Notes under the pieces: model-generated | The model's input: the letters and a program-made list of their open reading frames with translations, nothing else | Databases searched by the model: none | What the model was told of the DNA's origin: nothing | Made by a program: the position numbers and the translations under genes | Assembly (NCBI GenBank): GCA_018662225.1 | Contig: JABJGO010000055.1 | Coordinates: 1-64,000, forward strand | From: Rhodospirillales bacterium | Lineage (GTDB): Bacteria > Pseudomonadota > Alphaproteobacteria > Rhodospirillales > Casp-alpha2 | Length of the DNA: 64,000 bases | Reading direction: 5' to 3' | Shown here: positions 9,446 to 43,739 of the stretch, in pieces | How positions within the stretch are numbered: the first letter of the stretch is position 1 | How the letters are laid out: each line of letters opens with the position of its first letter

Positions 9446-9576
9446 GATTTTATCTCTTCCCTGGAAACCCAAAAGTCTTGTTGAGGCCCTGTTTAACGCC
9501 TTGGTATGCCAAACGCCACACCCGAAATGATGGGGAGGCCTACCCCTTGGTGTAGGTCGTTTGAATAGGGTGCTAT

Positions 9577-25599: not shown

Positions 25600-25752
25600 C
25601 GCCCCATACGTTTTACATATGTTCTGGCTTACCTAGATGATCGGTACGCTGTTTAGCTTAGTTATCCCCTAACATTGTGATCGTTAAATAAACCGCATTA
25701 TCACATGGTGTGAGATGCGAAATCATAACGCCTGTTAGAAGGAAAAATAACT

Positions 25753-25962: not shown

Positions 25963-25968
25963 TTAAGA

Positions 25969-26009: not shown

Positions 26010-26112
26010 AATCGCCGGAAATTGAGGGCAGAATACTATTTGTCTCAAAAATTTCGAACGTGCGAAAAAAAATACTTCAACACCACCCTCAACAATATCT
26101 GATGGAACACTG

Positions 26113-26283: not shown

Positions 26284-26434
26284 AGTGACGTTGAGAATTT
26301 AACATTATCCCCATCCGAGTGACGTGCACAGGTGCCGTCGTCCAATGACTGAGTCCATATGCCTTATGGCGGACTTCTCGGAACTTAAATACAAACAGCT
26401 TATGAAGCGCCCGGCCTTGGTCTGGAAGCGCCCA

Positions 26435-26914: not shown

Positions 26915-27064
26915 ATTATTTGATCTACCTTGCTTCATTAAAAAAGGTGCTGTCAAGGTTGATCCTGAAATATTTTTTTCTTATCGTTTACATTATGGCA
27001 ATATCTTTTCAAACGTGCCTATTATAGATGCCTGTACGACCTGTTTCAGGAGATACGTTCACCC

Positions 27065-27981: not shown

Positions 27982-30753
27982 TTACTCAGCCGCCTGGGCG
28001 TCTTCAACCTTTTCCACCCGCGCCGCACAGAACTTGAACTCGGGGATCTTGCCGAACGGGTCGAGCTTTGGATTGGTCAGCACATTGGCTGGGGCTTCTG
28101 CGAAACAGAACGGAATAAAGACCAGGCCTTCGGGTTGGTTGGGGTTCTGGCGAACCGTCAGCGTAATGGTGCCACGTCGCGTGTGAACAGCGGCCATATC
28201 GCCAGCTTCAATCCCTAAACGCAGCATATCGCTACGGTTCAGCGAGACAACGGCTTCCGGCTCAAGCGCATCCAGCACCGTGGCCCGGCGAGTCATGGAA
28301 CCCGTGTGCCAATGCTCCAGCATCCGACCCGTGGTCAACACCAGCGGATATTCATCATCAGGCACCTCATCGGGCGGGATGATGCTGGCCGGCACAATCT
28401 TGGCCCGGCCTGACGCGGTCGGGAAACCATCGATGAAGATAACCGGATTGCCGAAACTGGTTGGATCATCACAAGGGTAGGTGACCACATTTTCGGTCTC
28501 TAGCCGTTCCCAGGTAATGTTGTCCAGTGACGGCATGGCCAGTTTCATTTCGGCGAACACATCGGCGGGGCCGGTGTAGGTCCAATCAAGTCCCAGACGT
28601 TTGCCCACTTCCGTAATGATCCACCAGTCGTGGCGGGCATCGCCCGGCATGGGCACGCATTCACGTACCATCTGGACCTGGCGGTTGGTGTTTGAGAACG
28701 TGCCAACTTTTTCAGCATGGGCCGAAGCTGGCAACACCACATCCGCATGCCATGCCGTTTCGGTGAGAAAGATATCCTGTACCACCAGGTGATCCAGCAT
28801 AGCCAGCGCCTGACGGGCATGGCTTTGGTCCGGATCAGACATGGCCGGGTTTTCACCTTCCACATACATGGCTTTGATAGTGCCATCGTGGATGGCGTCG
28901 ATGATTTCCACCACCGTCAGGCCCTTCTTGGCATCAAGATCGGTGCCCCACAGTTCTTCGAACCGTTCACGTACGTCGGCGTTTTCTACGGATTTGTAAT
29001 CTGGATAGCAGATGGGAATCAGACCAACGTCGGACGCGCCCTGAACGTTGTTTTGTCCACGCAATGGATGCAGACCTGTACCGGGGCGACCAATCTGACC
29101 GGTAATTAGTGCCAGCGTGATCAGGCAACGGGCGTTGTCTGTTCCGTGAATGTGTTGGGAAACGCCCATGCCCCAGAAAATGATGGAGGCGTCGGATTTA
29201 GCATAAGTCCGAGCCACTTTGCGAAGTGTATCCGGATCAATGCCGCAAATCTCGGTCATAGCCTCAGGCGAATAATCCTTGATGTGATCTTTCAGCGCAT
29301 CAAAGCCTTCGGTGTTGGCTTGAATGTACTGAACATCATAAAGCTCTTCTTCCACGATGGTGTGGATCATGGCGTTCAGCATCGCCACGTCTGAGCCCGG
29401 CTTGAAGTGCAGGTGGTCGGTGGCATAGCGCGACATCATTTGACCACGGGGATCCATGATGAAAACTTTGGTGCCTTGCTTGGCCGCCTGTTTGAAATAG
29501 GTCGCCGCCACCGGATGGTTCTGCGCCGGGTTACAGCCAATGGCGATAACACAATCGGCGGTTTCAGCATCGGTAAAGGGCGCGGACACAGCGCCAGAGG
29601 CCACACATTCCATGAGCGCCGCCACAGACGACGCATGGCACAGGCGTGTGCAGTGATCCACGTTGTTGGTGTGGAATGCGGTACGGATCAGTTTTTGGAA
29701 CAGGTAAGCTTCTTCGTTGGAGCCTTTGGCTGAACCGAACCCGGCCAGACCTTTCGGGCCTTCCGATTCATAAGTCTTTTTCAATCCACCAGCGGCGGCA
29801 TCCAGGGCTTCATCCCAGCTTGCTTCGCGGAATACGGTTTGCCAATCGCCATCCTTGATGTGTTGCTGCCAGTCTTTTGGCGCATCATCACGCCGGATCA
29901 ATGGCGTGGTCAGGCGGTGTGCGTGGGCGATATAGTCATAGCCAAACCGACCTTTGACACACAGACGATTTTCGTTGGCGGGGCCTGAGCGACCGTCAAC
30001 TTTGACGATTTTGTCATCCTTGATGTGAACTTTGGTCTGGCAACCCACACCACAGAACGGGCATACGGTATCAACCGTGCGGTCGGCATAAACTGTCCGG
30101 GTGCCTTTGTCGTCCAGCAGGCTTGCTTCCATCAGCGCGCCGGTTGGGCAGGCCTGAACACATTCCCCGCAAGCTACGCAGGTGCTGTCACCCATGGGAT
30201 CATTGAAATCAAAGGTGATCTTCGATCCACTCCCACGAAAAGACATGCCGATCACGTCATTGACCTGAACCTCGCGACAGGCGCGAACGCACAGATTGCA
30301 ATTGATACAGGCATCCAGATTGACAGCCATGGCCACATGACTGTTGTCAGCTGACGGCTTGCTTTCAGCGGCGGCGAACCGGGATGCGTCCACACCAACT
30401 TTATCGGCCCAGTTCCAGAATTTAGAATCAGGGTCGTGAGATGTGGCGCGCTCAGGCTGGTCAGCAACCAGCAATTCGAACACCAGTTCACGGGATTTCT
30501 TGGCCCGTTCGGACGCCGAGTTCACAACCATGCCTTCGGTTGGCATGCGGATACAGGAGGCGGCGAGAACGCGTTCGCCCTCAACCTCGACCATACAGGC
30601 GCGGCAATTGCCGTCACCACGGAACCCGGGTTCCGGTGAATAACATAAATGTGGAATTTCAACGCCTTCACGCTGGCTTATCTGCCAGATGGTTTCATCG
30701 GCGCCGGCCTCGACTTCCTTACCGTTCAGCGTGAATTTGATTTGGTCCGTCAT
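27982..30753 (-). CDS. fdsA: NAD-dependent formate dehydrogenase, alpha (molybdopterin) subunit
   Basis: This 923-residue protein is of the FdsA type. The order is: a NuoG-like 2Fe-2S domain (residues 1-80, CYSPEPGFRGDGNCRACMVEVEG); a pair of 4Fe-4S clusters (CINCNLCVRACREVQ and CVACGECVQACPTGAL); the Mo-bis-MGD core beginning CPFCGVGCQTKV, with active-site cysteine region VDHCTRLCHASS; and a C-terminal dinucleotide-binding domain (HWHTGSMTRRA). It oxidises formate to CO2. The ATG at 30753 overlaps the fdsGB stop (TGATG); a GTG lies one codon earlier. FdsC/FdhD and FdsD are not in the window. The context links it to oxalate-derived formate. Confidence 0.95.
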   Translation of the reverse strand: MTDQIKFTLNGKEVEAGADETIWQISQREGVEIPHLCYSPEPGFRGDGNCRACMVEVEGERVLAASCIRMPTEGMVVNSASERAKKSRELVFELLVADQPERATSHDPDSKFWNWADKVGVDASRFAAAESKPSADNSHVAMAVNLDACINCNLCVRACREVQVNDVIGMSFRGSGSKITFDFNDPMGDSTCVACGECVQACPTGALMEASLLDDKGTRTVYADRTVDTVCPFCGVGCQTKVHIKDDKIVKVDGRSGPANENRLCVKGRFGYDYIAHAHRLTTPLIRRDDAPKDWQQHIKDGDWQTVFREASWDEALDAAAGGLKKTYESEGPKGLAGFGSAKGSNEEAYLFQKLIRTAFHTNNVDHCTRLCHASSVAALMECVASGAVSAPFTDAETADCVIAIGCNPAQNHPVAATYFKQAAKQGTKVFIMDPRGQMMSRYATDHLHFKPGSDVAMLNAMIHTIVEEELYDVQYIQANTEGFDALKDHIKDYSPEAMTEICGIDPDTLRKVARTYAKSDASIIFWGMGVSQHIHGTDNARCLITLALITGQIGRPGTGLHPLRGQNNVQGASDVGLIPICYPDYKSVENADVRERFEELWGTDLDAKKGLTVVEIIDAIHDGTIKAMYVEGENPAMSDPDQSHARQALAMLDHLVVQDIFLTETAWHADVVLPASAHAEKVGTFSNTNRQVQMVRECVPMPGDARHDWWIITEVGKRLGLDWTYTGPADVFAEMKLAMPSLDNITWERLETENVVTYPCDDPTSFGNPVIFIDGFPTASGRAKIVPASIIPPDEVPDDEYPLVLTTGRMLEHWHTGSMTRRATVLDALEPEAVVSLNRSDMLRLGIEAGDMAAVHTRRGTITLTVRQNPNQPEGLVFIPFCFAEAPANVLTNPKLDPFGKIPEFKFCAARVEKVEDAQAAE

Positions 30754-32450
30754 CACACTTCCTCCGGGAAAAATTTCATAACGCTCAGCATGGGATTGGG
30801 GGCTGCCTGCCCCAGTCCACAGATCGATGCATCCATCATAACGGTTTTAAGCTCGTTCAAAAGATCAACGTCCCACTTGTCTTTGGCCATGAGGCCAGCG
30901 GCTTTGGCGGTTCCATTGCGACATGGTGTGCACTGACCACAGCTTTCATCTTCAAAGAACCGCATGAGGTTCAGAGCCGCGTCTTTGACGCTGTCTTTTT
31001 GCGATAGAACAATAACGGCGTGGGAGCCAACGAAACAACCCAACTCGCCCAACTCGCCACCGAAATCAAGCGGTAGATCGCCTTTTGATGCAGGCAATAT
31101 CCCACCCGATGCGCCGCCGGGCAGGTAGGCGTTGAATTCATGCCCCTCGGCCATACCGTCGCAGTAATCGTTGATCAACTCTCGCACCGTCACACCAGCC
31201 GGGGCCAGTTTAACGCCCGGACTTTTGACCCGGCCTGAAACCGAATAGGACCGGAAACCCTTGCTTTCGCCTTTGCCCTGGCTGCTGAACCACTCGGGAC
31301 CATTGTTCAGAATGTCGCGAACCCAATACATGGTTTCGATATTGTGGGTCAGGGTGGGGCGTTGGAACAGGCCGCGTTCAGACGGGAAGGGGGGGCGGTT
31401 GCGGGGCAGGCCGCGCTTGCCTTCGATGGACTCGATCATGGCTGATTCTTCACCGCAGATGTAGGCACCGGCACCGCGCCGAACCTCAAGACCGATACCG
31501 CCGGTCAAACCTTCGGCTTGAAGGCGGGCAATTTCTGATTCCAGAATATGGATGATGCCGGGGTATTCATCACGAATGTAGATGTAGACCGTTTCAATCT
31601 CACAGGTCCAGGCCGCGACCAGCGTGCCTTCCAAAAACTGGTGTGGGTTCCGTTCCAGGTAGTAGCGATCCTTGAACGTACCAGGCTCACCTTCGTCACC
31701 ATTGACGGCAAACAGGCGGGGTTTGGGTTGATCACGGACGATTTTCCATTTGAGACCGGATGGGAAACCGGCGCCACCCAAACCGCGCAGGCCTGAGTCC
31801 TGCATGGTTTTGACGATATCCTCGGCGTCCATATCACCAGCAAGGCATTTGTTCAGCAAAGCGTAACCACCATCCGCCACATAGGCGTCATAACCCACGT
31901 AGTCGGTTTTGGCGGGGTGCACGTCACCGGCGTCAGCGGTCGACAGCAGGCCTTCGGCCGTGGCATGACCAACGTGGTTGTGGCCCACTTCGGCAACCGG
32001 TGCACTATCACAGCGACCCATGCAGGGCGCACGGACCACGCGCACGTCATCGGGAGCCTTGGCCGCCAGTTCTTCCATTAATTTTACGGAGCCCGCCATT
32101 TCACAGCTGAGCGAGTCACAAACGCGGATGGTGATGGGGGCAGGGGCGGTTTCACCTTCCAGTACGATATCGAAGTGTGCGTAAAACGATGCCACCTCGT
32201 AAACTTCTGACATAGAGATTCCCATTTCAGCCGCCAATGCGGCCAGATGCTGGGCGGATAAGTGGCCGAATTTATCCTGGATCAGATGCAGATGTTCGAT
32301 CAGCAGATCACGCCGACGGGGACGATCGCCCAGCAATATCTGAATGTCCTCAGATGCCTGTGGGTCAACCTGGCGACCCTTGTTGTATATAGGCGCTTTG
32401 CGACGGCCTGAGCCAGGATGTATCTTGCGTCCAGCATCTGATTTGTTCAT
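30753..32450 (-). CDS. fdsGB: Formate dehydrogenase gamma-beta fusion (NuoE-NuoF-like diaphorase)
   Basis: The protein is 565 residues. The N-terminal part (about 35-165) is a NuoE-like 2Fe-2S domain (LHLIQDKFGHLSAQHLAAL, CDSLSCEMAG, APCMGRC). The rest is a NuoF-like flavoprotein: FMN-binding GLRGLGGAGFPSGLKW, NADH-binding GAGAYICGEESAMIESIEG, and 4Fe-4S ligands SCGQCTPCRNGTAK. It passes electrons from FdsA to NAD. In many species FdsG and FdsB are separate, while fused forms are also known. It is the first gene of the fdsGB-fdsA operon, whose promoter region carries two TGGTATACCA operators. Confidence 0.95.
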   Translation of the reverse strand: MNKSDAGRKIHPGSGRRKAPIYNKGRQVDPQASEDIQILLGDRPRRRDLLIEHLHLIQDKFGHLSAQHLAALAAEMGISMSEVYEVASFYAHFDIVLEGETAPAPITIRVCDSLSCEMAGSVKLMEELAAKAPDDVRVVRAPCMGRCDSAPVAEVGHNHVGHATAEGLLSTADAGDVHPAKTDYVGYDAYVADGGYALLNKCLAGDMDAEDIVKTMQDSGLRGLGGAGFPSGLKWKIVRDQPKPRLFAVNGDEGEPGTFKDRYYLERNPHQFLEGTLVAAWTCEIETVYIYIRDEYPGIIHILESEIARLQAEGLTGGIGLEVRRGAGAYICGEESAMIESIEGKRGLPRNRPPFPSERGLFQRPTLTHNIETMYWVRDILNNGPEWFSSQGKGESKGFRSYSVSGRVKSPGVKLAPAGVTVRELINDYCDGMAEGHEFNAYLPGGASGGILPASKGDLPLDFGGELGELGCFVGSHAVIVLSQKDSVKDAALNLMRFFEDESCGQCTPCRNGTAKAAGLMAKDKWDVDLLNELKTVMMDASICGLGQAAPNPMLSVMKFFPEEV

Positions 32451-32587
32451 ACCGCTTCCTATTCACAACACTCGCTGTTTAGAGCAAAAATTTCACGCCG
32501 AATATGACGTGCCCGTCGACCGTAGTCACTCACAAATGCATCCAATTTTATGCGTTTCAGAAAAAATATTACCAATCGCGTGCTTTT

Positions 32588-32618
32588 TGGTATACCAGTT
32601 GTGGGCCTTGGTATACCA
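32588..32618. promoter_or_regulatory. Two TGGTATACCA operators in the fds-gntR divergent region
   Basis: TGGTATACCA occurs at 32588-32597 and 32609-32618, both perfect palindromes with centres 21 bases apart, two helical turns. They lie between the divergent starts of fdsGB (32450) and the GntR gene (32737). FCD-type GntR regulators bind short TGGT-N-ACCA palindromes, so autoregulation and control of fds are likely. A third copy is at 33609. Confidence 0.78.
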
Positions 32619-32736
32619 AAACTGATCCAACTGCCGAGTCCCTGTATAGTGAGCCTGTGGTTGATTCGTGTTTAGCCCCGCATGTGAGGGGCAGCATTCC
32701 TCAGGCGACGTAACAGATATTGTAAGGGCCTTGTTC

Positions 32737-33420
32737 GTGAATACTCTCAAAGTCGACCCGATCGATACCAACTACAGCCTCAAAGAGCGCATCCACACAT
32801 CGCTTAGGCAGGCGATTTGTGACATGAACGTATATGAGGAGGGCGTAAATCTCAGGCTTGATGAGCGCAAGTTATCCGAACAGCTGGCCACCAGCCGCAC
32901 GCCAATTCGTGAAGCGCTCGCCCGTTTGGAACAAGAAGGGCTGGTTCGTATCGTGCCGCGCAAGGGCGTTTATATTGTTCGCAAAAGCAAGGCTGAGATC
33001 ATGGAAATGATTACCGTCTGGGCTGCACTGGAAAGCATGGCCGCACGATTGGTTACCCAGCGCGCCACTGATGCCGATATTTCTTCGTTGCGTACGATTT
33101 TTGCGACGTTTGATGACGGCGAAGTTCGTGCCCATATCGACGAATATTCAGACGCCAACATTTCCTTTCACATGTCGATCGTTGACATGAGCCAGTGTGA
33201 GTTACTGAAAAGCATGACCAGCAACATCCTCATGCACATCCGCAGTATCAGGGCGCGTACAATTGGCGATTCTGATCGGGCAGAGCGGTCCATTATTGAT
33301 CATATGCACATTATTGAAGCCCTGGAGCAACGAGACGCTGATTTAGCCGAGCGTTTGACACGGGATCACGCCCTGGGATTGGCAAACCATGTGGCCCACA
33401 ATGTGACGTATCTGGATTAG
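32737..33420 (+). CDS. GntR-family regulator, FadR/FCD subfamily
   Basis: The protein is 227 residues from GTG 32737, with AAGGG about 8 bases upstream; the frame is open further up but without a better site. The winged HTH is typical (RLDERKLSEQLATSRTPIREALARLEQEGLV, residues about 35-65, in parts of fewer than 20). The FCD ligand domain follows with the metal-binding pattern D..FH..., seen as SDANISFHMSIV and IIDHMHIIEALEQRD. It is divergent from the formate dehydrogenase operon and directly upstream of the tctCBA-oxc-frc cluster. Oxalate, formate or a CoA ester are candidate inducers by context. Confidence 0.92.
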   Translation: MNTLKVDPIDTNYSLKERIHTSLRQAICDMNVYEEGVNLRLDERKLSEQLATSRTPIREALARLEQEGLVRIVPRKGVYIVRKSKAEIMEMITVWAALESMAARLVTQRATDADISSLRTIFATFDDGEVRAHIDEYSDANISFHMSIVDMSQCELLKSMTSNILMHIRSIRARTIGDSDRAERSIIDHMHIIEALEQRDADLAERLTRDHALGLANHVAHNVTYLD

Positions 33421-33608
33421 GTCGCGTCCTACCACTTTCCGGTTTCTTGCCCGAATACAGGTGGGAATTCCTGCTATTTGTCGATCTGGCCAACTGAATC
33501 GTCTTGGCTTGGCCCGTAAGAAAATATCCTAAATTCAAATCCTTAAGAACAATTCCGCAAAAAAAATGCCTGAAAACGAAATTACTTGTTCAAAATCGTA
33601 TTTTTCAC

Positions 33609-33618
33609 TGGTATACCA
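33609..33618. promoter_or_regulatory. TGGTATACCA operator upstream of tctCBA-oxc-frc
   Basis: This is a third perfect copy of the palindrome found twice before fds. It lies 195 bases upstream of the tctC start, in the 383-base gap after the gntR gene. The rest of the gap holds no convincing gene: a 41-codon ORF across the operator lacks a ribosome-binding site. The promoter itself is not clear, although the operator core TATACC could overlap a -10. Confidence 0.75.
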
Positions 33619-33803
33619 TATGCCAATGAAGGTGTTAAAAATAAAAACATCCGACGAACAGGCACTGACGTTTGATTTTGGATTTGGCTAAATAATGTTT
33701 GTTCCTGAGGAAGCTCTTCCGATACGATTATAAGGTGAAATGGCTAGGGGGGTGGATCATTTTTCAGCCCTTGGATAAACAAACAACAAACTGGGAGATT
33801 ACG

Positions 33804-34796
33804 ATGAAATTTGGTAAAAAACTTCTGGGTCTCGGTGTTGCTGCTGCTGTTGGCATTGGCATGACCGTTTCCTCCGTCGCGATCAATTCAGCGGAAGCTG
33901 GTTGGGCGCCTAAAAAGCCTATTGAATTCGTCATTATGGCTGGTAAAGGTGGCGGTGCCGACAAGATGGCTCGCCTGCTTCAAACCGTTATTGAAAAGAA
34001 CGGTTGGTCCTCCAAGCCACTTACGCCAATCAACAAGCCTGGTGGTTCCGGCGCTGAAGCCCTTGTTCACCTGAACAATGCTTCTGATCCTGATCACACC
34101 ATCATGGTGACACTGAACAGCTTCTACACCACGCCAATGCGTCAGCCGAAGCTGGGTGTGAACATCGAAACATTCACGCCGATCGCACGTATGGCTGAAG
34201 ATACCTTCCTACTATGGGTCAACAAAGATTCTGGTATCACGAATGTTGAAGAATTTGTTTCTGCTGCCAAAGCCAAAGGTGGCGACTGGATTATGGCTGG
34301 TACAGGTAAACTGTCAGAAGATAACCTGCTGACCGACTTCCTGAACGCTGCTTACGGTCTGGACATGAAATATGTACCGTATAAAGGTGGCGGGAAAGTT
34401 GCCAAGCAGTTGGCCGGTAATCACGCTGACTCAACCGTGAACAATCCTTCTGAACAGGAAGGTTTTTATGCTGCTGGCACCACTGTGCCGTTGGCTGCCT
34501 TCACGGATAACCGCCTTGCCATGTTCCCCGACGCGCCGACTTTCGGTGAGCTGGGTAAAGACTTCGTCTACTACATGCAGCGTAGTGTTGTGGGCGCCCC
34601 CGGCATGAGTGCCGGTGCCGCTGAATACTATCAGAAGCTGTTTGCCCAGGTGTTCGCATCTGAAGAGTGGTCTGCCTATCGTACGAAGAAGAGCCTGCAA
34701 GGCGACCTTCTTCAGGGCGACGCTCTGATGAGCTATTGGATGAATGAGCGTGATGTTCATGAAGCCATGCTGCGGAAGATGGGAGCCCTCGACTAA
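33804..34796 (+). CDS. tctC: Tripartite tricarboxylate transporter substrate-binding protein (TctC family)
   Basis: The protein is 330 residues from ATG 33804 (GGGAG 8 bases upstream). A Sec signal peptide is visible (FGKKLLGLGVAAAVGIGMTV, cleavage likely after NSAEA). The mature protein shows the Bug/TctC pattern: KPIEFVIMAGKGGGADKMARL, INKPGGSGAEALVHL, then PYKGGGKVAKQLAGNHAD. TTT binding proteins capture carboxylates in the periplasm. It heads an operon with tctB, tctA, oxc and frc, so oxalate is the likely ligand, by context only. Three hairpins lie between this gene and tctB. Confidence 0.92.
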   Translation: MKFGKKLLGLGVAAAVGIGMTVSSVAINSAEAGWAPKKPIEFVIMAGKGGGADKMARLLQTVIEKNGWSSKPLTPINKPGGSGAEALVHLNNASDPDHTIMVTLNSFYTTPMRQPKLGVNIETFTPIARMAEDTFLLWVNKDSGITNVEEFVSAAKAKGGDWIMAGTGKLSEDNLLTDFLNAAYGLDMKYVPYKGGGKVAKQLAGNHADSTVNNPSEQEGFYAAGTTVPLAAFTDNRLAMFPDAPTFGELGKDFVYYMQRSVVGAPGMSAGAAEYYQKLFAQVFASEEWSAYRTKKSLQGDLLQGDALMSYWMNERDVHEAMLRKMGALD

Positions 34797-34807
34797 TCTA
34801 GTCGAGG
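34787..34807 (+). other. Hairpin spanning the tctC stop codon
   Basis: CCTCGACTA (34787-34795) and TAGTCGAGG (34799-34807) form a perfect 9-base stem with a 3-base loop, and the TAA stop lies at the top. No T-run follows, so it is not a standard terminator. A second small stem, AACAAC/GTTGTT, follows at 34815-34832. Such stems often protect upstream mRNA from 3' exonucleases. Confidence 0.72.
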
Positions 34808-34847
34808 CACTCAAAACAACTATTTGGTTGTTGTGGATATTACAGAG

Positions 34848-34901
34848 AGGCCGCCATCATGAAAAAAGCAGAAATAGTAATGACTCTCATGATGGCGGCC
34901 T
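34848..34901 (+). promoter_or_regulatory. Hairpin enclosing the tctB ribosome-binding site and start codon
   Basis: AGGCCGCCATCATGA (34848-34862) and TCATGATGGCGGCCT (34887-34901) are perfect 15-base complements with a 24-base loop, extendable by G-U pairs to about 18. The tctB ATG (34859-34861) and part of its GAGAGG ribosome-binding site are inside the left arm, and the right arm is within the tctB coding sequence. In RNA this would block translation initiation of tctB unless opened by ribosomes or another factor. Confidence 0.75.
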
Positions 34902-35356
34902 TTTCTGCATATCTTATGTGGAAAAGTGCTGAGCTCTCCGTTGGCTGGGTTGAAGACGAAGGCCCAGGAGGTGGCGCATGGCCTTTCTGGCTTTCCGCTA
35001 TCATGTTTGGGACTTCGGTCTGGTCCCTCATACGGTGCGTTCGCGGGGCGAGCCTGCCTAGTCAGTCCGACGAGCCGTTCATGGATGATTTTGCGCTCAG
35101 ATCCTTTCTACAGGTTGCTGTCCCGCTTGGTATAGCGCTGGCCCTGATCCACGTTGTGGGGATCTACTTCTCGATCCCGCTGTTTATGATTTATTACATG
35201 CGTTTCCTGGGGAAACATAAATGGCCGCTGACGCTGGCTGTGTCGATCAGCACACCCGTCGTTACGTTCTTCTTCTTTGATATAGCGCTGAGAATCGTGC
35301 TGCCCAAAGGATACACTGAACCCATGTTCTACCCCCTGTATGACATATTCTTGTAA
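34859..35356 (+). CDS. tctB: Tripartite tricarboxylate transporter small permease (TctB family)
   Basis: This 165-residue inner-membrane protein has four hydrophobic segments: MTLMMAAFSAYLMW, WPFWLSAIMFGTSVWSLI, LQVAVPLGIALALIHVVGIY and LTLAVSISTPVVTFFFFDIAL. These fit the TctB family in length and order. The GPGGGAWPFWL motif after helix 1 is typical. It partners with TctA in sodium- or proton-coupled carboxylate uptake. Its start is enclosed in a 15-base stem, unlike the other genes of the operon, so its expression is probably lower than that of tctC. Confidence 0.88.
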   Translation: MKKAEIVMTLMMAAFSAYLMWKSAELSVGWVEDEGPGGGAWPFWLSAIMFGTSVWSLIRCVRGASLPSQSDEPFMDDFALRSFLQVAVPLGIALALIHVVGIYFSIPLFMIYYMRFLGKHKWPLTLAVSISTPVVTFFFFDIALRIVLPKGYTEPMFYPLYDIFL

Positions 35357-35421
35357 GCGCTACTGACCTAAGCACTACTGACCTCGAAACTGGTACTTGA
35401 GCAACATAAGGCATCCTTAAT

Positions 35422-36939
35422 ATGGAACTCCTTGGAAATCTGGCGGATGGCTTCTTTATTGCGTTTGAGCCGCTAAACCTCGGTTTAATGATTGTTGGCG
35501 TCATCGTTGGCTTGTTCATCGGTGCAATGCCGGGACTTGGCTCCGTAAATGGTGTGGCAATCCTGCTGCCCATGACATTCCTGGTGCCGCCGACCTCGGC
35601 TATTATTTTTCTCGCTGCCATTTATTACGGCGCTATGTACGGGGGCGCCATCAGTTCGATTATGCTTGGCATACCGGGGGCGTCCACGGCGGTGGCGACC
35701 ACATTTGACGGTCGCCCGCTGGCCCTTAAAGGCGAAGCTGATAAAGCCCTGATCGGCGCGGCTATGGCGTCCTTCGTTGGTGGCACCATATCAATCATCC
35801 TGTTTACCTTGTTCGCACCGCCTTTGGCCAAGTGGGCTTTGGCATTCGGTGATCATGAACTGTTTGCGTTGATGATGATGGCGTTTGCTACGTTCGTCGG
35901 TCTGTCAGGTGATGATATTCCCAAGACTCTTTTTTCGATCTGCATCGGCCTTGTGCTGAGTTCCGTTGGTCTCGACATTATGAGTGGTGAGCCACGTTTG
36001 GTGTTCTTTGACATTATCGGCTTTATGCACGGCATTAACTTCCTTGTGCTGGCTATCGGTGTGTACGGTATTGGTGAAATGCTGTGGACTATCGAGACCA
36101 CACGCGGTGAGCCTGCGATGTCGAAAGCGAAGGTTTCCGTTGAGCGCGTGGTATCAAACCTGAAAGAAATTTCCAACACATGGGTTACGGCCCTGATGGC
36201 ATCTTTCGTTGGCTTTTTTGTGGGCATCCTGCCCGCGGCGGGTGCAACGCCGGGATCATTGATGTCCTACGGCTTTGCGAAGACCTATTCCAAAACTCCG
36301 GAAGAATTCGGCAAAGGCAAAATCGATGGTGTTGTGGCCCCTGAAGCGGCGAACAACGCGGCATCAACGGGTGCTATGCTGCCAATGCTGACACTGGGCA
36401 TTCCGGGTTCTCCAACCACGGCAATCCTGCTGGGTGGCATGGTGATTTGGGGTCTGGTTCCCGGACCGATGCTGTTCATTGAACAGGAAGAATTCGTGTG
36501 GGGGCTGATTGCCTCGCTGTATGCGGCCAATCTGTTTGCTGCTGTTATCAACATCGGTTTTATTCCCATGTTCCTGTGGATGTTGAAAATGCCATTTAGC
36601 ATTTTGGCACCGATCATTTTCGTGCTGTGCATCATTGGCGGCTTCGCACCAACGCAAAGCATGCATGACGTTTGGTTGATGTACGGCTTTGGTGTGGTTG
36701 CGTTTTTGATGCGGAAACTTGATTACCCCTTGGCACCGGCGGTGTTGGCGATCGTGCTTGGGCCTCTGGCTGAACCTTCATTAAGGCAATCACTGCTGAT
36801 CTCAAATGGTGATATTACCTCATTCTTCACTCGACCGATTTCCGGCACCTTTATGGCTTTCGCTATTTTCTTGCTGGCGTTGCCCATTATCAAAGCTGTA
36901 CGGGCGAGGTCGGCGAATAAAGGTTCTGCGTCGGCGTAA
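35422..36939 (+). CDS. tctA: Tripartite tricarboxylate transporter large permease (TctA family)
   Basis: This 505-residue membrane protein has about twelve helices. TctA hallmarks are visible: GLFIGAMPGLGSVNGVAILLP near the N-terminus, YYGAMYGGAISSIMLGIPGA, and, in the second half, GILPAAGATPGSLMSY and LGIPGSPTTAILLGGMVIWG. It forms the translocation pathway with TctB. It lies between tctB and oxc on the same strand, with gaps of 65 and 40 bases. Transport of oxalate is inferred from the neighbours; the family as a whole moves citrate, tartrate, aromatic acids and others. Confidence 0.94.
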   Translation: MELLGNLADGFFIAFEPLNLGLMIVGVIVGLFIGAMPGLGSVNGVAILLPMTFLVPPTSAIIFLAAIYYGAMYGGAISSIMLGIPGASTAVATTFDGRPLALKGEADKALIGAAMASFVGGTISIILFTLFAPPLAKWALAFGDHELFALMMMAFATFVGLSGDDIPKTLFSICIGLVLSSVGLDIMSGEPRLVFFDIIGFMHGINFLVLAIGVYGIGEMLWTIETTRGEPAMSKAKVSVERVVSNLKEISNTWVTALMASFVGFFVGILPAAGATPGSLMSYGFAKTYSKTPEEFGKGKIDGVVAPEAANNAASTGAMLPMLTLGIPGSPTTAILLGGMVIWGLVPGPMLFIEQEEFVWGLIASLYAANLFAAVINIGFIPMFLWMLKMPFSILAPIIFVLCIIGGFAPTQSMHDVWLMYGFGVVAFLMRKLDYPLAPAVLAIVLGPLAEPSLRQSLLISNGDITSFFTRPISGTFMAFAIFLLALPIIKAVRARSANKGSASA

Positions 36940-36979
36940 GCACGCCTGAATTCGCGGTACTACATTAAGGACGTTCAAA

Positions 36980-38698
36980 ATGACTGACAACGAAGGCACT
37001 CCCGACGCTTTAACGGACGGCTTTCACCTTCTGATCGACGCGTTGAAGCTTAATGATCTGAATACAATTTATGGCGTACCCGGTATCCCGGTGACCGATC
37101 TGGGGCGAATGGCCCAGGATGCGGGTATTCGGGTATTGTCATTTCGCCATGAGCAGAATGCCGGTAATGCGGCTGCCATCGCAGGCTTTCTCACAAAGAA
37201 ACCGGGGATTTGCCTGACGGTTTCAGCGCCGGGTTTTTTGAATGGTCTGACCGCATTGGCTCACGCCACAACGAACTGTTGGCCCATGATCCTGATTAGT
37301 GGTTCGTCCGAACGCGAAGTCGTCGATTTGTTACAAGGCGATTATGAAGAGATGGATCAACTGGCCATTGCCAAGCCTCTATGCAAAGCCGCCTATCGTA
37401 TTTTGCATGCCGAAGATATCGGAATTGGTGTGGCGCGCGCTATTCGTTCTGCTGTGTCTGGCCGTCCCGGCGGTGTTTATCTGGATATTCCGGGCGCCCT
37501 GCTTGGCCAAGTCATGGATGAAGCCGAAGGGGCCAAATCTCTGGTTAAAGTCATTGATCCCGCACCAGCCCAAATTCCGGCCCCAAGTGCTGTATCGCGC
37601 GCCATTGAAGTGATGAAAGGGGCCAAGAAGCCGCTGATCATCCTTGGCAAGGGGGCGGCGTATGCGCAGGCCGATGAAGTGGTTCGTGAATTCGTTGAAA
37701 CCAGTGGCATGCCGTTTCTTCCCATGAGTATGGCAAAAGGCCTGTTGCCTGATAATCATCAGCAATCAGCCGCTGCCGCCCGGTCCATGGCGCTTAAAGA
37801 ATCCGATGTGGTGATTATGGTTGGCGCGCGCCTCAACTGGCTGTTGTCGCATGGCAAGGGCAAGCAGTGGGGTGATGCCCATTCCACCAAGTTTGTCCAG
37901 ATCGATATTGAGCCCAGAGAAATGGATAGCAACGTGGAAATCGCTGCACCGTTGGTTGGCGATGTGGAATCGTGTCTCTCTGCATTGTTGACCGAAATGG
38001 GCAGCAGTTGGGAGAAACCATCTGAAGACTGGCTTGGACCGTTGAGCGTTAAGAAAGAATCGAATTTGGTCAAGATGGCGTCCAAACTGCTGAACAACAG
38101 CAATCCTATGGATTACCATGCGGCACTTGGCGTGCTGCGTGAAATTATCGCTGAACGTCCCGATGCCATGCTTGTCAATGAAGGCGCGAACACGCTTGAT
38201 CTGGCACGCTCGATCATCAACATGTCCAAACCGCGCAAGCGTCTCGACGTTGGCACCTGGGGTGTCATGGGCGTGGGGATGGGCTCGGCAATCGCGGCGG
38301 CCGTTGAAACCGGTAACCCTGTGTTAGCGATTGAAGGCGATAGCGCGTTTGGTTTTTCCGGCATGGAGGTTGAAACCATCTGCCGATATAACCTGCCGGT
38401 TTGTATCGTGATCTTTAACAACAACGGTATCTACCGGGGGACGGACGTGAATACGTCGGGCGGATCCGACGTTGCCACAACCGTGTTTGTGAAAGACGCG
38501 CGGTATGATCAGATGATGGAAGCGTTCGGTGGTGCGGGGGCCTATGTAACCAGCCCGGATGAGCTGCGCCGTGCTGTAAACGAAGCCATGGATTCTGGTA
38601 GGCCAACGCTTGTAAATGCGGTGATTGATGAGGCGGCTGGTTCCGAAAGTGGGAACATCGGCAGCTTAAATCCGCAAAGTGTCGTATCAAAAAAATAA
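36980..38698 (+). CDS. oxc: Oxalyl-CoA decarboxylase
   Basis: This 572-residue protein is close in sequence pattern to characterised Oxalobacter OXC (568). The ThDP glutamate is in [17 protein letters not shown], followed by [20 protein letters not shown] and [20 protein letters not shown]. The ThDP-Mg motif is [20 protein letters not shown] with NNNGIYRG, and the ADP/CoA-binding centre is [15 protein letters not shown]. It converts oxalyl-CoA to formyl-CoA and CO2. AAGGACG is the ribosome-binding site. It is followed by frc after 18 bases, the usual pairing for oxalate breakdown. Confidence 0.96.
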
Positions 38699-38716
38699 AC
38701 TAAGGAGATCAGGTAA

Positions 38717-39964
38717 ATGGAGAAGGCTCTTTCAGGCGTCAAAATTCTGGATATGACGCATGTACAATCGGGACCGACTTGTACGCAGCTGCTGGCATGG
38801 TTTGGCGCGGACGTGATTAAAGTCGAGCGACCCGGTGTAGGCGACGCTACGCGCAAGCAGCTTGTAGATGTACCTGGTGCCGATAGCCTTTATTTCACGA
38901 TGCTTAATCACAACAAACGCAGTGTGACACTTAACCCCAAGTCTGAGGAAGGTGCAAAAATATTCACCAAGCTCATCGAACATTGTGATGTGATGGTGGA
39001 AAACTTCGCGCCGGGGGCTCTGGACCGTATGGGCTTCACCTGGGAGCGTATTCAGGAGATTAATCCGCGTATGATCTACGCATCGGTTAAAGGCTTTGGC
39101 CCCGGCGCGTATGAAGACTGCAAAGTATACGAGAACGTGGCCCAGTGTGCTGGCGGGTCCGCATCTACCACCGGCGATCTGGATGGCTTGCCTTTGGTTA
39201 CAGGCGCGCAGATTGGCGATTCCGGCACAGGCCTTCATTTGGCCCTTGGTATCGTGACCGCATTGTACCAACGCACGCATTCAGGCCGCGGTCAGAAAGT
39301 TGATTGTGCCATGCAGGATGGCGTCCTGAATTTGTGCCGGGTTAAATTACGCGACCAGCAACGCCTTGCCGCAGGCCCGCTCAACGAATATTCGCAAGCA
39401 GGCAAAGGCATTCCCTTTGGTGATGCCACACCGCGCGCCGGTAACGATTCAGGCGGTGGCCAGCCGGGCCGCATTCTGAAATGCAAAGGTTGGGAGAACG
39501 ATCTCAACGCCTATACGTACTTCATCACGCAGGAAGCGGCCTGGCCGGCTGTGTGCGATGTTATCGGCAAGCCCGAGTGGAAAGAAGACCCTGACTATTC
39601 AACACCAAAAGCACGCCTGACACGCCTTGATGAAGTGTTCGCCGCTGTTGAAGCGTGGACAATGACCCAGACCAAGTTTGAGGTTATGGCCGCCTGTAAC
39701 CCGGTTAATATTCCGGTTGGCCCCATCCTCAGCATGAAGGAAATCGCCGAAGACGAAAGCCTGCGTAAATCAGGCACCATTGTGGAAGTGGACCACCCCG
39801 AACGCGGTAAGTACCTGAGCGTCGGCAATCCCATCAAATTGTCAGACTCGCCTAGCGACGTCGTCCGCTCTCCCTTATTAGGTGAGCACACGGATGAGAT
39901 TTTGACTGAGATCGGCCTGTCTCCTGAAGACATTGCCGCCGCGCGTGAAGGCAAGGCAATCTAG
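38717..39964 (+). CDS. frc: Formyl-CoA:oxalate CoA-transferase
   Basis: This 415-residue class III CoA-transferase has [20 protein letters not shown] at the N-terminus. The catalytic Asp is in [14 protein letters not shown] (equivalent to Asp169 of the Oxalobacter enzyme), and [10 protein letters not shown] is the mobile glycine loop. Length and pattern match Frc rather than generic CaiB-like enzymes. It transfers CoA from formyl-CoA to oxalate, releasing formate and recharging oxalyl-CoA for Oxc. AAGGAG lies 8 bases upstream. The next gene starts 11 bases after its stop. Confidence 0.95.
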
Positions 39965-39975
39965 GAGCTAAACAC

Positions 39976-40893
39976 ATGCGAATTATTCTTATGGGCCAAC
40001 AGGCTTTCGGCAAGGCAACGTTGGAATCATACCTTGATCGTGGTGAAGATGTGGTCGCTGTGTATTGTGCACCCGATAAAGAAGGCAAACCCATCGATCC
40101 CGTGAAAGAGTTCGCGTTGGAAAAAGGTTTGCCGGTGTATCAGCCAGCCAACTTCAAGGACGCCGACGTTCTGGACGAAATGCGGGGCCTGAATGCTGAT
40201 CTATGCGTGATGTCGTTTGTCATTATTTTCGTGCCAGAAGAAGCCCGTGATATTCCAACCCATGGCTCTATCTGTTTCCATCCATCCCTGTTGCCGCTCC
40301 ACCGTGGACCCAGCTCTATCAACTGGCCTATTATTGGGGGCTCAACCAAGTCAGGCCTTAGCATTTTTTGGCCAAATGACGGGCTGGACGAAGGCGAAAT
40401 CCTGCTTCAGAAAGAAGTGGATATCAGCCCGGATGACACCCTTGGGTCCGTTTATTTTGACAAAATATTCCCGCTCGGTATTGCGGCCATGGGCGAAGCT
40501 GTTGATATGATCCGTGACGGTAACCTGGTCAAAGAGGTGCAGGACGAAAGCAAGGCAACCTACGAGTCCTGGTGCAAGAAATCAGACGCCGAGATCGATT
40601 GGTCCAAGCCGGTTGATGAGGTCTATAACCTGATCCGGGGCACAAACCCGCAACCGGGTGCCTGGACCACTATCAATGGTGCCGAAGTAAAGATTTTTGA
40701 TTGTGAAAAGTCGTCGGAAACCGGTGGCGCGTCAGGTGAAGTTATGAGCGATAATGCCAATGGTTTTACGGTCGCGGCACCCGGTGGTCACATACTAGTC
40801 AAGCGGGTTAGACCCGATGGATCTGGCAAAATCCCCGCCAGTGAACTGGTCGCCAACGGCGGGGTTTCCAAAGGCGATGTTTTGGGGCAATAA
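39976..40893 (+). CDS. Stand-alone homologue of the ALDH1L1 N-terminal 10-formyl-THF hydrolase domain (Fmt-like)
   Basis: This 305-residue protein has a formyltransferase fold (about 1-200) plus Fmt C-terminal OB domain (about 205-305). It matches the N-terminal half of 10-formyltetrahydrofolate dehydrogenase better than methionyl-tRNA formyltransferase: MRIILMGQQAFGKATLE, YCAPDKEGKPIDPVKEFA, the catalytic His in HGSICFHPSLLPLHRGPSS, the Asp in FWPNDGLDEGEILLQKE and LIRGTNPQPGAWT. The acyl-carrier linker and aldehyde dehydrogenase domain are absent, and it lacks the ACT domain of PurU. Likely activity is hydrolysis or transfer of the formyl group of 10-formyl-THF. Its place between frc and fhs suggests balancing of C1 units. 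Confidence 0.85.
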   Translation: MRIILMGQQAFGKATLESYLDRGEDVVAVYCAPDKEGKPIDPVKEFALEKGLPVYQPANFKDADVLDEMRGLNADLCVMSFVIIFVPEEARDIPTHGSICFHPSLLPLHRGPSSINWPIIGGSTKSGLSIFWPNDGLDEGEILLQKEVDISPDDTLGSVYFDKIFPLGIAAMGEAVDMIRDGNLVKEVQDESKATYESWCKKSDAEIDWSKPVDEVYNLIRGTNPQPGAWTTINGAEVKIFDCEKSSETGGASGEVMSDNANGFTVAAPGGHILVKRVRPDGSGKIPASELVANGGVSKGDVLGQ

Positions 40894-41059
40894 TCCGTCC
40901 GCCAACCCAAAGCCACCAAGTGGGCGAGTTTGGAGAAATAATTGTCGTATACGAGCATGAACAAGCACCTTGAAAAAGGTGTTATGCCGTACTGAACATT
41001 TTCACGATCCGCGTTTGTCGAATTCGGATTTATCTGTTTACCCAGTAGGGGAGATTACT

Positions 41060-42733
41060 ATGCCTAAAAGCGATATCGAAATCGCGCGTCTCGCGACCAT
41101 GAAACCGATTGCCGAAATCGGCAAAAGACTTGGAATTCCAGAAGAATCCCTTCTTCAGTACGGCCCCACAAAGGCCAAAGTCTCATTTGATTTCATCGAA
41201 GGCTTGAAAAAGAAACGCGATGGCAAGTTGATCCTGGTGACGGCTGTAACGCCGACCCCGGCTGGTGAAGGTAAAACCACCACATCTGTTGGTCTGACCG
41301 ATGGCCTGAACAAAATTGGCAAGAACGCCATGGTTGCCTTGCGCGAACCATCACTGGGCCCATGCTTCGGCATGAAGGGCGGCGCTGCTGGTGGCGGTTA
41401 CGCTCAAGTGGTGCCAATGGAAGACATCAACCTGCACTTCACGGGTGATTTCCATGCTATTGGTGTTGCACACAACCTGCTGGCTGCACTGATCGATAAC
41501 CATATCTATTGGGGCAACAAGCTGGACATCGATACACGCCGGGTGAGCTATCGTCGCGTTGTTGACATGAATGATCGCTCCTTGCGTCAGATCACGTCAT
41601 CACTCGGTGGTGTTTCAAACGGCTTCTCCCGTGAAGACGGCTTCGACATCACGGTGGCGTCTGAAATTATGGCCATCTTCTGTCTCGCCACAGACCTGAA
41701 CGACCTAACCGACCGCCTCGGCAAAATCGTTGTCGCCCAGACCCGCGGTCGCAAGCCGGTTCTGGCCAAACAGCTTAAAGCAGCAGGCCCCATGGCCGTT
41801 CTGTTGAAAGACGCGTTGATGCCGAACCTGGTACAGACGCTGGAAAACAATCCTGCCTTTATCCATGGTGGCCCGTTCGCCAACATTGCGCATGGTTGTA
41901 ACTCTGTTATTGCCACCAAGACGGCGCTGAAACTGGCTGACTATGTGGTCACGGAAGCTGGCTTTGGTGCCGATCTGGGCGCCGAGAAGTTCTTCGATAT
42001 TAAATGTCGTAAGGCTGGTCTGAAACCTTCTGCGACGGTTGTTGTTGCAACGGTTCGCGCCCTGAAGATGCACGGTGGTGTTGCCAAGGGGGACCTGGGC
42101 AAAGAAAACGTGGCCGCTGTGAAAGCCGGTTGTTCCAACCTGGCCCGTCACATCAAGAATATGAAGTCATATGGTGTACCGGTGGTGGTTGCCATCAACC
42201 AGTTCGTCAACGACACCAACAAGGAACTGAATGCCGTTCGTGCCACGGCCAAGAAACTGGGCGCTAAAGCTATCGTTGCCAGCCACTGGGCAAACGGTGG
42301 TGAAGGTACGAAAGAACTGGCGACCGAAGTGGTCAAGCTGGTCGATAGCGGTAAAGCCAAGTTCAAGGTGTTGTACCCGGATTCCATGTCGCTTGAGAAT
42401 AAAATGCGTACAATCGCGCAGAAACTCTACGGCGCCAAAGATATCGCTTTCGATGGCACCATTGCCAAGCGGTTCGCTGAATTGGAAGCTGGCGGGTATG
42501 GCAAGTTCCCGATTTGTGTAGCCAAAACCCAGTACAGCTTCTCCACCAATCCAGATGCCAAGGGCGCGCCATCGGGACATATTGTTCCGGTTCGTGAACT
42601 GCGGTTGTCGGCCGGTGCTGAATTCATTGTGGCTGTCACAGGCGACATCATGACCATGCCTGGTCTGCCCAGCAAACCTGCGGCCAACAACATCTACCTG
42701 AACAAAAAAGGCCAGATCGAAGGCTTGTTCTAG
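41060..42733 (+). CDS. fhs: Formate-tetrahydrofolate ligase
   Basis: The protein is 557 residues from ATG 41060, with GGGGAG 7 bases upstream, giving the standard family length; a frame open 90 bases further upstream is not conserved. The P-loop is [16 protein letters not shown] near residue 65. FTHFS signatures [21 protein letters not shown] and [18 protein letters not shown] are intact, as is [21 protein letters not shown]. It makes 10-formyl-THF from formate, ATP and THF. It follows the formyl-THF hydrolase-like gene by 166 bases, so it may have its own promoter. It would feed oxalate-derived formate into folate-bound C1 metabolism. Confidence 0.97.
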
Positions 42734-42881: not shown

Positions 42882-43739
42882 ATGAGTATTCGCACGATTT
42901 TGGCCCCCGTCCGGGGCGACGGAAAAGGCGAGAGTGTGTTAGACCACGCCCGTGTTGTGGCAAACAGATTTGATGCCCATATTGATGTCATTCATGCTCG
43001 CGCCCGCGATCAGGATTTGATGCCCTACGGGGTTTTAATGACCGCTTCTATGAAGCAGGCCATTCTGGATGCCTCTAGTGCACAATCAGAAACGGAAGAG
43101 CAGCGTGTTCGTGACATGTTTAACGAATATTGCGAAAAGGCTGGTCTGACGATTGTTGATTCAGGCGCCCTTAATCAAACATCAAACACCATCTCGTGGC
43201 GGGAGATTACCGGAAAACAGGCCGGTATCATCGGTGTTCACGGTCGACTTGCCGACCTGATTATTGTGCCCAAGCCGGGTACGGAATTAGGCCACAATAC
43301 CCTTGAATCTGCGTTGATGAATACAGGCAGCCGCACCCTCATGTGCCCCGATGGCCCGGTTGGTAAAGTTGGCGACCGGATTGCGCTTGCCTGGAATGGC
43401 AGCATCGAGTCGGCCCGTGTGGCAAAAGCAACCCTGCCGTTCTTGAAGAAAGCATCCAACGTCACGATTGTTACCAATGACGCGGATGGCTCATCATCAG
43501 GTATTCCGGTAACGGACCTGCAACGTATGTTGGCACGTCAGGGCGTCGACACCGAGGTTCTGCCCTTCAATGCTGGCGATGATATCGGGGCTAGTATTCT
43601 GGGCGCGGCCAGCGCTGCGATTACTGATTTGTTGATTATGGGGGCGTATTCGCACAGCCGCCGCCGTGAGATGATCATGGGCGGCGCCACACATGAGATT
43701 ATCGAGCAGGCTGAGCTACCGGTTCTCATGCTGCATTAA
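42882..43739 (+). CDS. Universal stress protein, two Usp domains
   Basis: The protein is 285 residues. Two UspA folds are in tandem: residues 1-145 (IRTILAPVRGDGKGESVLDHA, then PGTELGHNTLESALMNTGSR) and 155-285 (DRIALAWNGSIESARVAKAT, ending GAYSHSRRREMIMGGATHEI). The last segment carries the G-2X-G-9X-G(S/T)-like ATP-binding pattern, with GGATHEI at its end. Tandem Usp proteins respond to stress and often bind ATP. It lies between fhs and a quinone oxidoreductase gene, on the same strand but 149 bases from fhs. Confidence 0.9.
   Translation: MSIRTILAPVRGDGKGESVLDHARVVANRFDAHIDVIHARARDQDLMPYGVLMTASMKQAILDASSAQSETEEQRVRDMFNEYCEKAGLTIVDSGALNQTSNTISWREITGKQAGIIGVHGRLADLIIVPKPGTELGHNTLESALMNTGSRTLMCPDGPVGKVGDRIALAWNGSIESARVAKATLPFLKKASNVTIVTNDADGSSSGIPVTDLQRMLARQGVDTEVLPFNAGDDIGASILGAASAAITDLLIMGAYSHSRRREMIMGGATHEIIEQAELPVLMLH

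Follow-up and report, generated by a model that had tools for sequence, protein, structure and literature searches.

The window, a stretch of 64,000 nucleotides from a Rhodospirillales bacterium, contains a block of genes in the order gntR-tctCBA-oxc-frc-(10-formyl-THF hydrolase-like)-fhs-usp, with fdsGB-fdsA divergent. All of the genes listed in a first-pass annotation of this DNA were found as open frames, and their identities were backed by profile searches. On the reverse strand, fdsA (27982..30756) encodes the alpha subunit of an NAD-dependent formate dehydrogenase (TIGR01591, 744.8 bits, cut-off 666) and fdsGB (30753..32450; 2Fe-2S_thioredx, Complex1_51K and NADH_4Fe-4S) encodes the gamma and beta subunits, not as two genes but as a single fused frame of 565 amino acids with NuoE-like and NuoF-like domains. 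The gene for the FCD/GntR regulator (32668..33420; PF00392, PF07729) is divergent from fds, as the annotation had stated, and shares the forward strand with tct-oxc-frc. The three subunits of a tripartite tricarboxylate transporter (TTT) are encoded together, as judged by Pfam: the periplasmic binding protein TctC, the proposed oxalate receptor (33804..34796; PF03401, 84 bits), the small membrane subunit TctB (34859..35356; PF07331, 60 bits) and the large permease TctA (35422..36939; PF01970, 485 bits). The open frame of tctC begins at TTG 33699, but the start codon is very likely ATG 33804, which has GGAG upstream.

The product of oxc (36980..38698) scores 982 bits against the oxalyl-CoA decarboxylase model TIGR03254 (cut-off 739), contains both of the active-site stretches YEEMDQ and IYRG, and has M. 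extorquens Oxc (7ayg, 965 bits) as its best PDB match. That of frc (38717..39964), a formyl-CoA:oxalate CoA-transferase, scores 693 bits against TIGR03253 (cut-off 504) and best matches YfdW (1pt5). Both genes had originally been assigned from catalytic motifs, and the assignments stand since both exceed the curated cut-offs. Frc has the glycine loop and retains Q17, Q48 and D168 (D169 in the numbering of the family test); these numbers, and those of Y138 and E139, refer to the window's protein. Glutamine at position 48 is reported as the consensus in 87.3% of bacterial Frc proteins (PMC10192776). The following gene (39976..40893) encodes a 10-formyl-THF hydrolase/formyltransferase-like protein with Formyl_trans_N and Formyl_trans_C domains that scores below the Fmt cut-off. 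Its earlier hydrolase-like label is borne out by comparison with the PDB, where the hydrolase part of 10-formyl-THF dehydrogenases accounts for the top six matches and Met-tRNA formyltransferases rank behind them. The formate-THF ligase gene fhs (41060..42733; PRK13505, 913 bits, cut-off 652) likely starts at 41060, within a frame that is open from 40970. Genes for both fates of formate, Fds and Fhs, are linked to the block as claimed, each identified by profile. A universal-stress-type gene (42882..43739; PF00582, 34 bits) follows fhs, and recurs in 11 of 13 neighbourhoods from the host family. Since the gene set of the block recurs across other genera and families, the gene order is far from chance.

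Our reading, to which we give a probability of roughly 85%, is that the block forms a complete operon for the conversion of oxalate to formate, and that the import of oxalate falls to TctCBA, with its receptor TctC, instead of OxlT. The ligand of TctC, the direction of transport and the regulation are predicted. TctCBA, a secondary transporter with a periplasmic receptor, would take up oxalate; Frc would transfer CoA from formyl-CoA to oxalate, giving oxalyl-CoA and formate; Oxc would convert oxalyl-CoA to formyl-CoA and CO2; and Fds would oxidise formate to CO2 with production of NADH, or alternatively Fhs would load it onto tetrahydrofolate. The GntR protein probably regulates the block. Since TTT systems mediate receptor-dependent uptake and not oxalate/formate exchange, formate would be consumed inside the cell, and the linked Fds and Fhs genes accord with this. 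More tentatively, the hydrolase-like protein might shuttle formyl groups between CoA and tetrahydrofolate. It would thereby prime the Frc-Oxc cycle or allow formyl-CoA to be assimilated at no cost in ATP. The 10-formyl-THF dehydrogenase has thioester-transfer chemistry.

In operons of the same type, the position of oxc is often filled by a second ThDP enzyme, termed X here, which is 25–27% identical to Oxc. Relatives of the GntR regulator, mostly 50–70% identical, are found at most Oxc-type and X-type loci. Neighbourhood genes in relatives were read by tblastn, with neighbourhood counts for OxlT resting on the OxlT query from genome G056. Conservation of tctCBA with oxc-frc had been set beforehand as a test of the proposal, and it was upheld: of 31 further genomes in the order that carry Frc, 21 have TctCBA no more than 10 kb away from it and none has OxlT there. 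In this set, chosen by Frc, TctCBA is near in 16/24 Oxc-type, 5/6 X-type and 0/1 untyped genomes, which is a fairer measure than the eight X loci of the class sample, which were picked via their TctC, making their 8/8 with TctCBA circular. The host family has 13 other genomes with Frc; in 12 of them TctCBA is at most 10 kb from Frc, and the 13th is broken by a contig end. In the class sample, 11 other genomes have Oxc, with TctCBA nearby in five, OxlT in two and neither in four; the sequence of one of these four stops 0.8 kb from oxc. OxlT exceeded its curated cut-off in 2/51 of the Oxc, X or Frc genomes searched, both without TctCBA near oxc. The 80 X loci from named organisms, the best of at least 588 relatives, divide into 30 loci with a TTT, 24 with OxlT and 26 with neither (Fisher p 1.5e-6, kinship ignored), and when these 80 are included TctCBA and OxlT share none of 129 neighbourhoods (127 distinct, as L156 = L143 and L161 = L137). 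Flanks of 8 kb are present to either side of the ThDP gene in 10/49 of the class and order samples and 40/80 of the X set. Among the 35 Oxc-type neighbourhoods, 12 lack both TctCBA and OxlT, and one of them has a TRAP DctM near oxc. Three plasmid oxc loci were examined: pLA6_002 has the order gntR-oxc-frc-fmt-fhs-usp-tctCBA, while those of A. brasilense p4 and a Paracoccus alcaliphilus plasmid have neither carrier within 9–10 kb.

X scores about 210–260 bits against TIGR03254, far below the cut-off of 739, and has LQDLPH and QIR in place of the YEEMDQ and IYRG of Oxc. It also falls short of the model for actinobacterial 2-hydroxyacyl-CoA lyase (HACL), with 339–353 bits in all five proteins tested against a cut-off of 600 for NF058623. 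Under both curated cut-offs and without both sets of key residues, X was rejected as an Oxc ortholog and as AcHACL. It nevertheless takes the place of oxc beside frc, mostly in genomes without Oxc, as would be expected of an enzyme that works like Oxc: in 76 of the same 80 loci Frc is no more than 10 kb from X, and a true Oxc was found in 0/14 X-bearing genomes of the class and order samples, where the best four candidates per genome were scored, and in 5/23 from a set of named organisms. We infer that X is a candidate second family of oxalyl-CoA decarboxylases. If X were instead a 2-hydroxyacyl-CoA lyase, X operons would degrade a 2-hydroxy acid and the transporter clade would not be specific for oxalate. 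The best Foldseek matches of the X model are indeed HACL structures, although the model is of moderate confidence (mean pLDDT 74.8) and indicates just an Oxc/HACL fold. Against this, Q488-I489 of X align with the place of I492-E493 in AcHACL, so that X has isoleucine at the catalytic Glu493 (aligned to the 7pt3 chain, in which this Glu is mutated to Ala; the catalytic Glu is named in PMC8760513). The active-site residues of Frc are identical between Oxc-type and X-type loci, and OxlT is near X in the 24 loci counted above. Moreover, P. tuberum LMG21444 and P. phenoliruptrix LMG22037, whose degradation of oxalate has been published (PMC3886118, PMC13184526), both have X-Frc-OxlT, and in neither does an Oxc exceed the cut-off. 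On balance we consider a lyase function for X unlikely.

The clade of the window's TctC travels with three enzyme sets: Oxc-Frc, X-Frc, and an oxalyl-CoA-synthetase-like ligase (OXS) with a PanE-type reductase. The common substrate of the three sets is likely to be oxalate. PanE2 has been termed an oxalyl-CoA reductase (PMC8411744, PMC12686821). The trees used 46/48 TctC rows and 47/49 Frc rows, short fragments being left out. At the identity limits applied, an oxalate-activating gene is near in 16 of 27 clade neighbourhoods (15 without counting X alone), compared with 0/20 control loci with other TTT systems. These controls, together with the conservation in family and order, exclude TctCBA as a chance neighbour. 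Seven loci of the closer TctC group have no Frc or ThDP gene nearby, and four of these adjoin an AMP ligase and a PanE-type reductase; the ligase of L069 has only oxalate-CoA ligases among its PDB matches below 1e-60, and the other three share 57–67% identity with it or with a second query. Twelve other genomes of the class sample have a TctC at least 41% identical to that of the window. Eleven carry Frc or the OXS-PanE pair somewhere, and the twelfth, G228, has X without Frc in the stretch examined.

TctCBA could alternatively import another C2-C4 acid co-regulated with oxalate, such as glycolate, glyoxylate, malonate or tartronate, while oxalate diffuses in or uses another carrier. TTT systems transport many different carboxylates, and an oxalate-activating gene is absent from 11/27 clade neighbourhoods, although two of the 11 represent second copies and some are cut short by a contig edge; in G014 and G147, two holders of a clade TctC, searches at the chosen identity limits turned up neither Frc nor OXS nor PanE. 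Glyoxylate-linked genes occur near some more distant relatives, a BhcA-like aminotransferase (below cut-off) in L084 and gcl in Skermanella. TctC homologues of about 35% identity also stand in other contexts: one in Paracoccus has PdxA and dihydroxyacetone kinase as neighbours, and an Azospirillum and a Skermanella plasmid have theirs away from any oxalate genes. However, the association of the clade with all three enzyme sets and its alternation with OxlT speak against another acid, which we regard as quite improbable, and favour oxalate as the cargo of TctCBA.

In the genome as a whole, the only TctC match is the operon's own, and the search for OxlT found no match over the TIGR04259 cut-off (best 59.9 bits, cut-off 335). 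It is very improbable that one of two MFS carriers downstream (44791-45987 and 46111-47304, both MFS_1 and, like OxlT, members of the MFS, within 5 kb of fhs) is the oxalate transporter, as both are on the reverse strand, opposite to the operon, neither matches TIGR04259 at E 0.001, for which reason they were rejected as OxlT, and relatives found with the second as query occur in 2/38 loci (L064, L081) and 0/31 order neighbourhoods. Outside the block, about 23 kb upstream of gntR, a PanE-family reductase (8462..9472, reverse strand; NF005089, 467 bits, cut-off 223) is 56–57% identical to the PanE beside an oxalyl-CoA-synthetase-like ligase and to one near oxlT-X-frc, and is possibly an oxalyl-CoA reductase. 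Other oxalate loci have a conserved protein of the acetate-CoA-ligase family; the window's 738-aa ATP-grasp CoA ligase (21633-23849) is only 23–27% identical to it and was rejected as its counterpart.

Oxalate is an abundant acid of plants and fungi whose breakdown is the driving force of the oxalate-carbonate cycle and bears on kidney stones. It seems probable to us that oxalate operons are assembled by mix and match, with TctCBA or OxlT as importer and Oxc or the putative, hitherto unrecognised X family, evolved or recruited separately, as decarboxylase, that X is the missing oxalyl-CoA decarboxylase of oxc-less oxalotrophs, and that much of the oxalotrophy in soil and sea escapes the markers oxc and oxlT. 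If so, the second decarboxylase and a TTT importer would account for published oxalotrophs that lack oxc, the TTT family would gain a small, well-defined substrate, and X would be a new ThDP enzyme for formyl-CoA chemistry. A search of the open literature, with subscription papers outside its reach, found no description or assay of an oxalate TTT or of X.

Among known systems, the oxalyl-CoA reduction route of Methylobacterium extorquens (PanE2, PMC8411744) is paralleled by the PanE-family reductases near the oxalate genes of many relatives; the window's own PanE, at its distance of some 23 kb from gntR, is likened to it by family and may act in the same way. The transporter has all three subunits of tripartite tricarboxylate transporters, and the nearest solved receptors are TctC/Bug proteins, which the window's TctC resembles only distantly (best 73.5 bits); one list of acids that Bug receptors might bind includes oxalate (PMC2864759). 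Paraburkholderia phytofirmans, in which an oxc mutant loses growth on oxalate, shares with the window an oxc-frc pair and a dedicated carrier, but there the cluster is antiporter-oxc-frc and the carrier a putative oxalate/formate antiporter (PMC3886118), whereas here it is TctCBA. Finally, in the OXC/FRC/OxlT system of Oxalobacter formigenes, Oxc and Frc are orthologous to those of the window by curated models. In contrast to that system, the window's operon has TctCBA in a genome with no OxlT over the cut-off, and it links formate dehydrogenase and Fhs to oxalate breakdown, so that formate is probably used inside the cell rather than exported.

In the window, fdsA and a fused fdsGB lie on the minus strand, on the divergent side of the block, and an FCD-type gntR gene, tctC, tctB, tctA, oxc, frc, a formyl-transferase-like gene, fhs and a universal-stress-type gene follow in this order on the plus strand. 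The intergenic gaps from tctC through the formyl-transferase-like gene are 11-65 bases, and such short spacing is consistent with one operon. Profile searches placed Oxc (982 bits) and Frc (693 bits) above their curated cut-offs, the closest solved structures being M. extorquens Oxc and E. coli YfdW, respectively. The protein encoded at 39976-40893 (+), whose position between frc and fhs is conserved, has the hydrolase part of 10-formyl-THF dehydrogenase as its nearest match among solved structures; formyl transfer between folate and CoA is possible. A single TctC match was found in the genome (3.5 Mb, 103 contigs, 95.7% complete), whose top match to the OxlT model reached 59.9 bits (cut-off 335), and neither of two MFS genes downstream of the block matched that model. 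Upstream, the window encodes an aldehyde ferredoxin oxidoreductase (1740-3563, -), an MttB-family (trimethylamine methyltransferase-like) protein (5166-6749, +) and a TRAP DctQ subunit (26435-26956, -); no DctM-sized frame was seen in 24000-27000, and this DctQ may be the leftover of a TRAP system.

The first-pass annotation had proposed that TctCBA takes the place of OxlT as oxalate importer, and conservation of tctCBA beside oxc-frc bears this association out. Frc was present in 32/150 genomes of the order, the window's included, and the 31 other neighbourhoods were fetched and their gene content read by tblastn. TctCBA lay within 10 kb of Frc in 21 of these: in 16/24 with Oxc, in 5/6 with a second ThDP enzyme (here X) in the oxc slot, and not in the one, on a short contig, where no ThDP gene was found. 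Within the window's own family the figure was 12/13; in the exception the contig edge falls in fhs, and in its three congeners tctCBA lies beyond that point. In a class sample of 289 genomes Oxc exceeded its cut-off in 12, and the 11 besides the window's had TctCBA (5), OxlT (2) or neither (4) nearby, one of the last on a contig that stops 0.8 kb from oxc. Only 2/51 genomes bearing Oxc, X or Frc had OxlT over its cut-off, in both cases near oxc with no TctCBA there. Plasmid pLA6_002 of Paracoccaceae bacterium La 6 carries the order gntR-oxc-frc-fmt-fhs-usp-tctCBA, and the plasmid oxc loci of A. brasilense (p4) and P. alcaliphilus had no TctCBA or OxlT within 9-10 kb. Counting against this reading, neither carrier was found in 12/35 Oxc-type and 27/94 X-type neighbourhoods overall, in part because contigs are short. 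At one of the four class-sample loci with neither carrier (L092), a gene for TRAP DctM (10048-11361, +) lies 1.8 kb away from oxc and may encode a third kind of oxalate importer. Published work (PMC7190790) describes a transporter gene in some oxc-frc operons and a chloride channel in others, and suggests that oxalate is perhaps carried in diverse ways.

In 14 neighbourhoods of the class and order samples the ThDP gene of the operon encodes X rather than Oxc, and none of these 14 genomes has Oxc proper. At the 8 class loci X shares 25-27% identity with Oxc, and the other 13 X proteins are 68-85% identical to the X of L061 (4556-6277). The full set of X relatives comprises L066, L070-L073, L075, L077, L137, L138, L141-L144 and L156-L235. 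Most X operons are otherwise alike, with a related GntR, an Frc mostly 58-80% identical to that of the window and often a formyl-THF hydrolase-like gene, Fhs and Fds; at L070 no Frc occurred within the stretch fetched. A scan with one genome per species returned at least 588 relatives; among the best 80, 76 had Frc no more than 10 kb from X, and the nearby carrier was TctCBA in 30, OxlT in 24, neither in 26 and both in none. All 10 OxlT proteins tested near X exceeded the TIGR04259 cut-off (510-659 bits against 335). Among the hosts are Paraburkholderia, Cupriavidus, Thiomonas, Labrys, Phyllobacterium and many MAGs, and plasmid records add Streptomyces and Nonomuraea; Oxc proper was also present in 5/23 genomes searched from the scan. 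In the records examined, X is annotated at most as a thiamine pyrophosphate-binding protein (3/8 plasmid records, the other five listing no gene), and the public annotation of Phyllobacterium sp. T1293 reads oxlT, thiamine pyrophosphate-binding protein, frc. Five X proteins scored under every curated cut-off tried. The Oxc stretches YEEMDQ and IYRG are absent from X, which has a conserved C-terminal tail (A-P-G-T...Q-T-M-Y-K). This absence, together with the lack of the catalytic Glu of the 2-hydroxyacyl-CoA lyase AcHACL (a residue named in PMC8760513), indicates at the sequence level that X is a member of neither family, although it occupies the place of Oxc.

Several observations bear on whether the two operon types share a substrate. 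Frc residues Q17, Q48, Y59, Y138, E139 and D168 and the GGGQPG loop are invariant in 34 Oxc-type and 12 X-type sequences. On the Frc tree the Oxc/X labels are clustered (0/500 shuffles as low) and need four changes, each forced by well-supported branches; the decarboxylase partner of Frc was swapped several times. On the TctC tree they need eight, no fewer than after shuffling (mean about 8.6; 224/500 as low), and the history of the receptor therefore does not track the decarboxylase. PMC3886118 (Table 1) counts P. tuberum LMG 21444 and P. phenoliruptrix LMG 22037 among oxalate degraders, and PMC13184526 again names the former; the genomes of both strains contain X, Frc and OxlT, with no Oxc over the cut-off. 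The accessible text of PMC13184526 also reports several oxalotrophic panel strains without oxc, naming no replacement, and B. plantarii, which has frc and oxc but no oxlT and does not degrade oxalate, in agreement with the need for an importer.

The closer group of receptors resembling the window's TctC includes seven loci whose surroundings lack both Frc and a ThDP gene. In four (L064:10788-13405, L069:12523-15071, L067 and L068) TctCBA adjoins an AMP-forming, oxalyl-CoA-synthetase-like ligase (OXS) and a PanE-type reductase. The L069 ligase has four PDB matches below 1e-60, each of them an oxalate-CoA ligase, and M. extorquens PanE2 is described as converting oxalyl-CoA to glyoxylate (PMC8411744 and PMC12686821), the locus reductases being linked to PanE2 by shared family name rather than by sequence comparison. 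These loci are candidate oxalate-to-glyoxylate modules with their own importer. The other three genomes carry elsewhere OXS-PanE (G096), Frc-PanE (G107) or an X-type operon (G184). Overall, 16/27 clade neighbourhoods contained Oxc, X, Frc, OXS or PanE (15 if the presence of X by itself is disregarded), whereas at the identity limits used no searched gene was found in 20 control neighbourhoods, around other TTT systems in that sample (Fisher p 9e-6 for 16/27, relatedness ignored). Against the link, 11/27 clade neighbourhoods contained none of these genes, and in genomes G014 and G147 neither Frc nor OXS nor PanE was matched at these limits. With the OXS-PanE set added to the Oxc- and X-type operons, three enzyme sets go with one TctC clade, oxalate being their likely common substrate. 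TctC homologues at about 35% identity also occur in other contexts, and the assignment to oxalate should therefore not be extended to every relative.

The window itself encodes a PanE-family reductase (8462-9472, -), 56-57% identical to PanE at oxalate loci, which may be an oxalyl-CoA reductase giving the host a glyoxylate branch. At L271:4241-6367, L270:10907-13051 and 25 further loci, Oxc- and X-type alike, an acetate-CoA-ligase-family protein (ADP-forming type) recurs, 68-96% identical to that of Phyllobacterium; it is a candidate oxalate-CoA ligase priming the cycle. The ATP-grasp CoA ligase encoded in the window is no more than a distant relative of this protein.

Oxc, Frc, TTT, Fds and Fhs are already known families. 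Oxalate is among the listed possible Bug ligands (PMC2864759), the sole mention found, and neither an oxalate TTT nor X was described in the literature searched, so far as its text was available; if confirmed, the X family would be a larger discovery than the window's operon. In the pathway we propose, periplasmic oxalate would be captured by TctC and carried inward by TctAB, Frc would yield oxalyl-CoA and formate, and Oxc would yield formyl-CoA and CO2, the formyl-CoA returning to Frc; more speculatively, the hydrolase-like protein might move formyl between folate and CoA. Fds, Fhs or both occur in 23 of the 32 class- and order-sample loci with Frc, a ThDP gene and TctC/TctA nearby. Whereas formate export is coupled to uptake by OxlT, uptake by TctCBA would involve no such export, and formate would therefore go to oxidation by Fds or to capture by Fhs.
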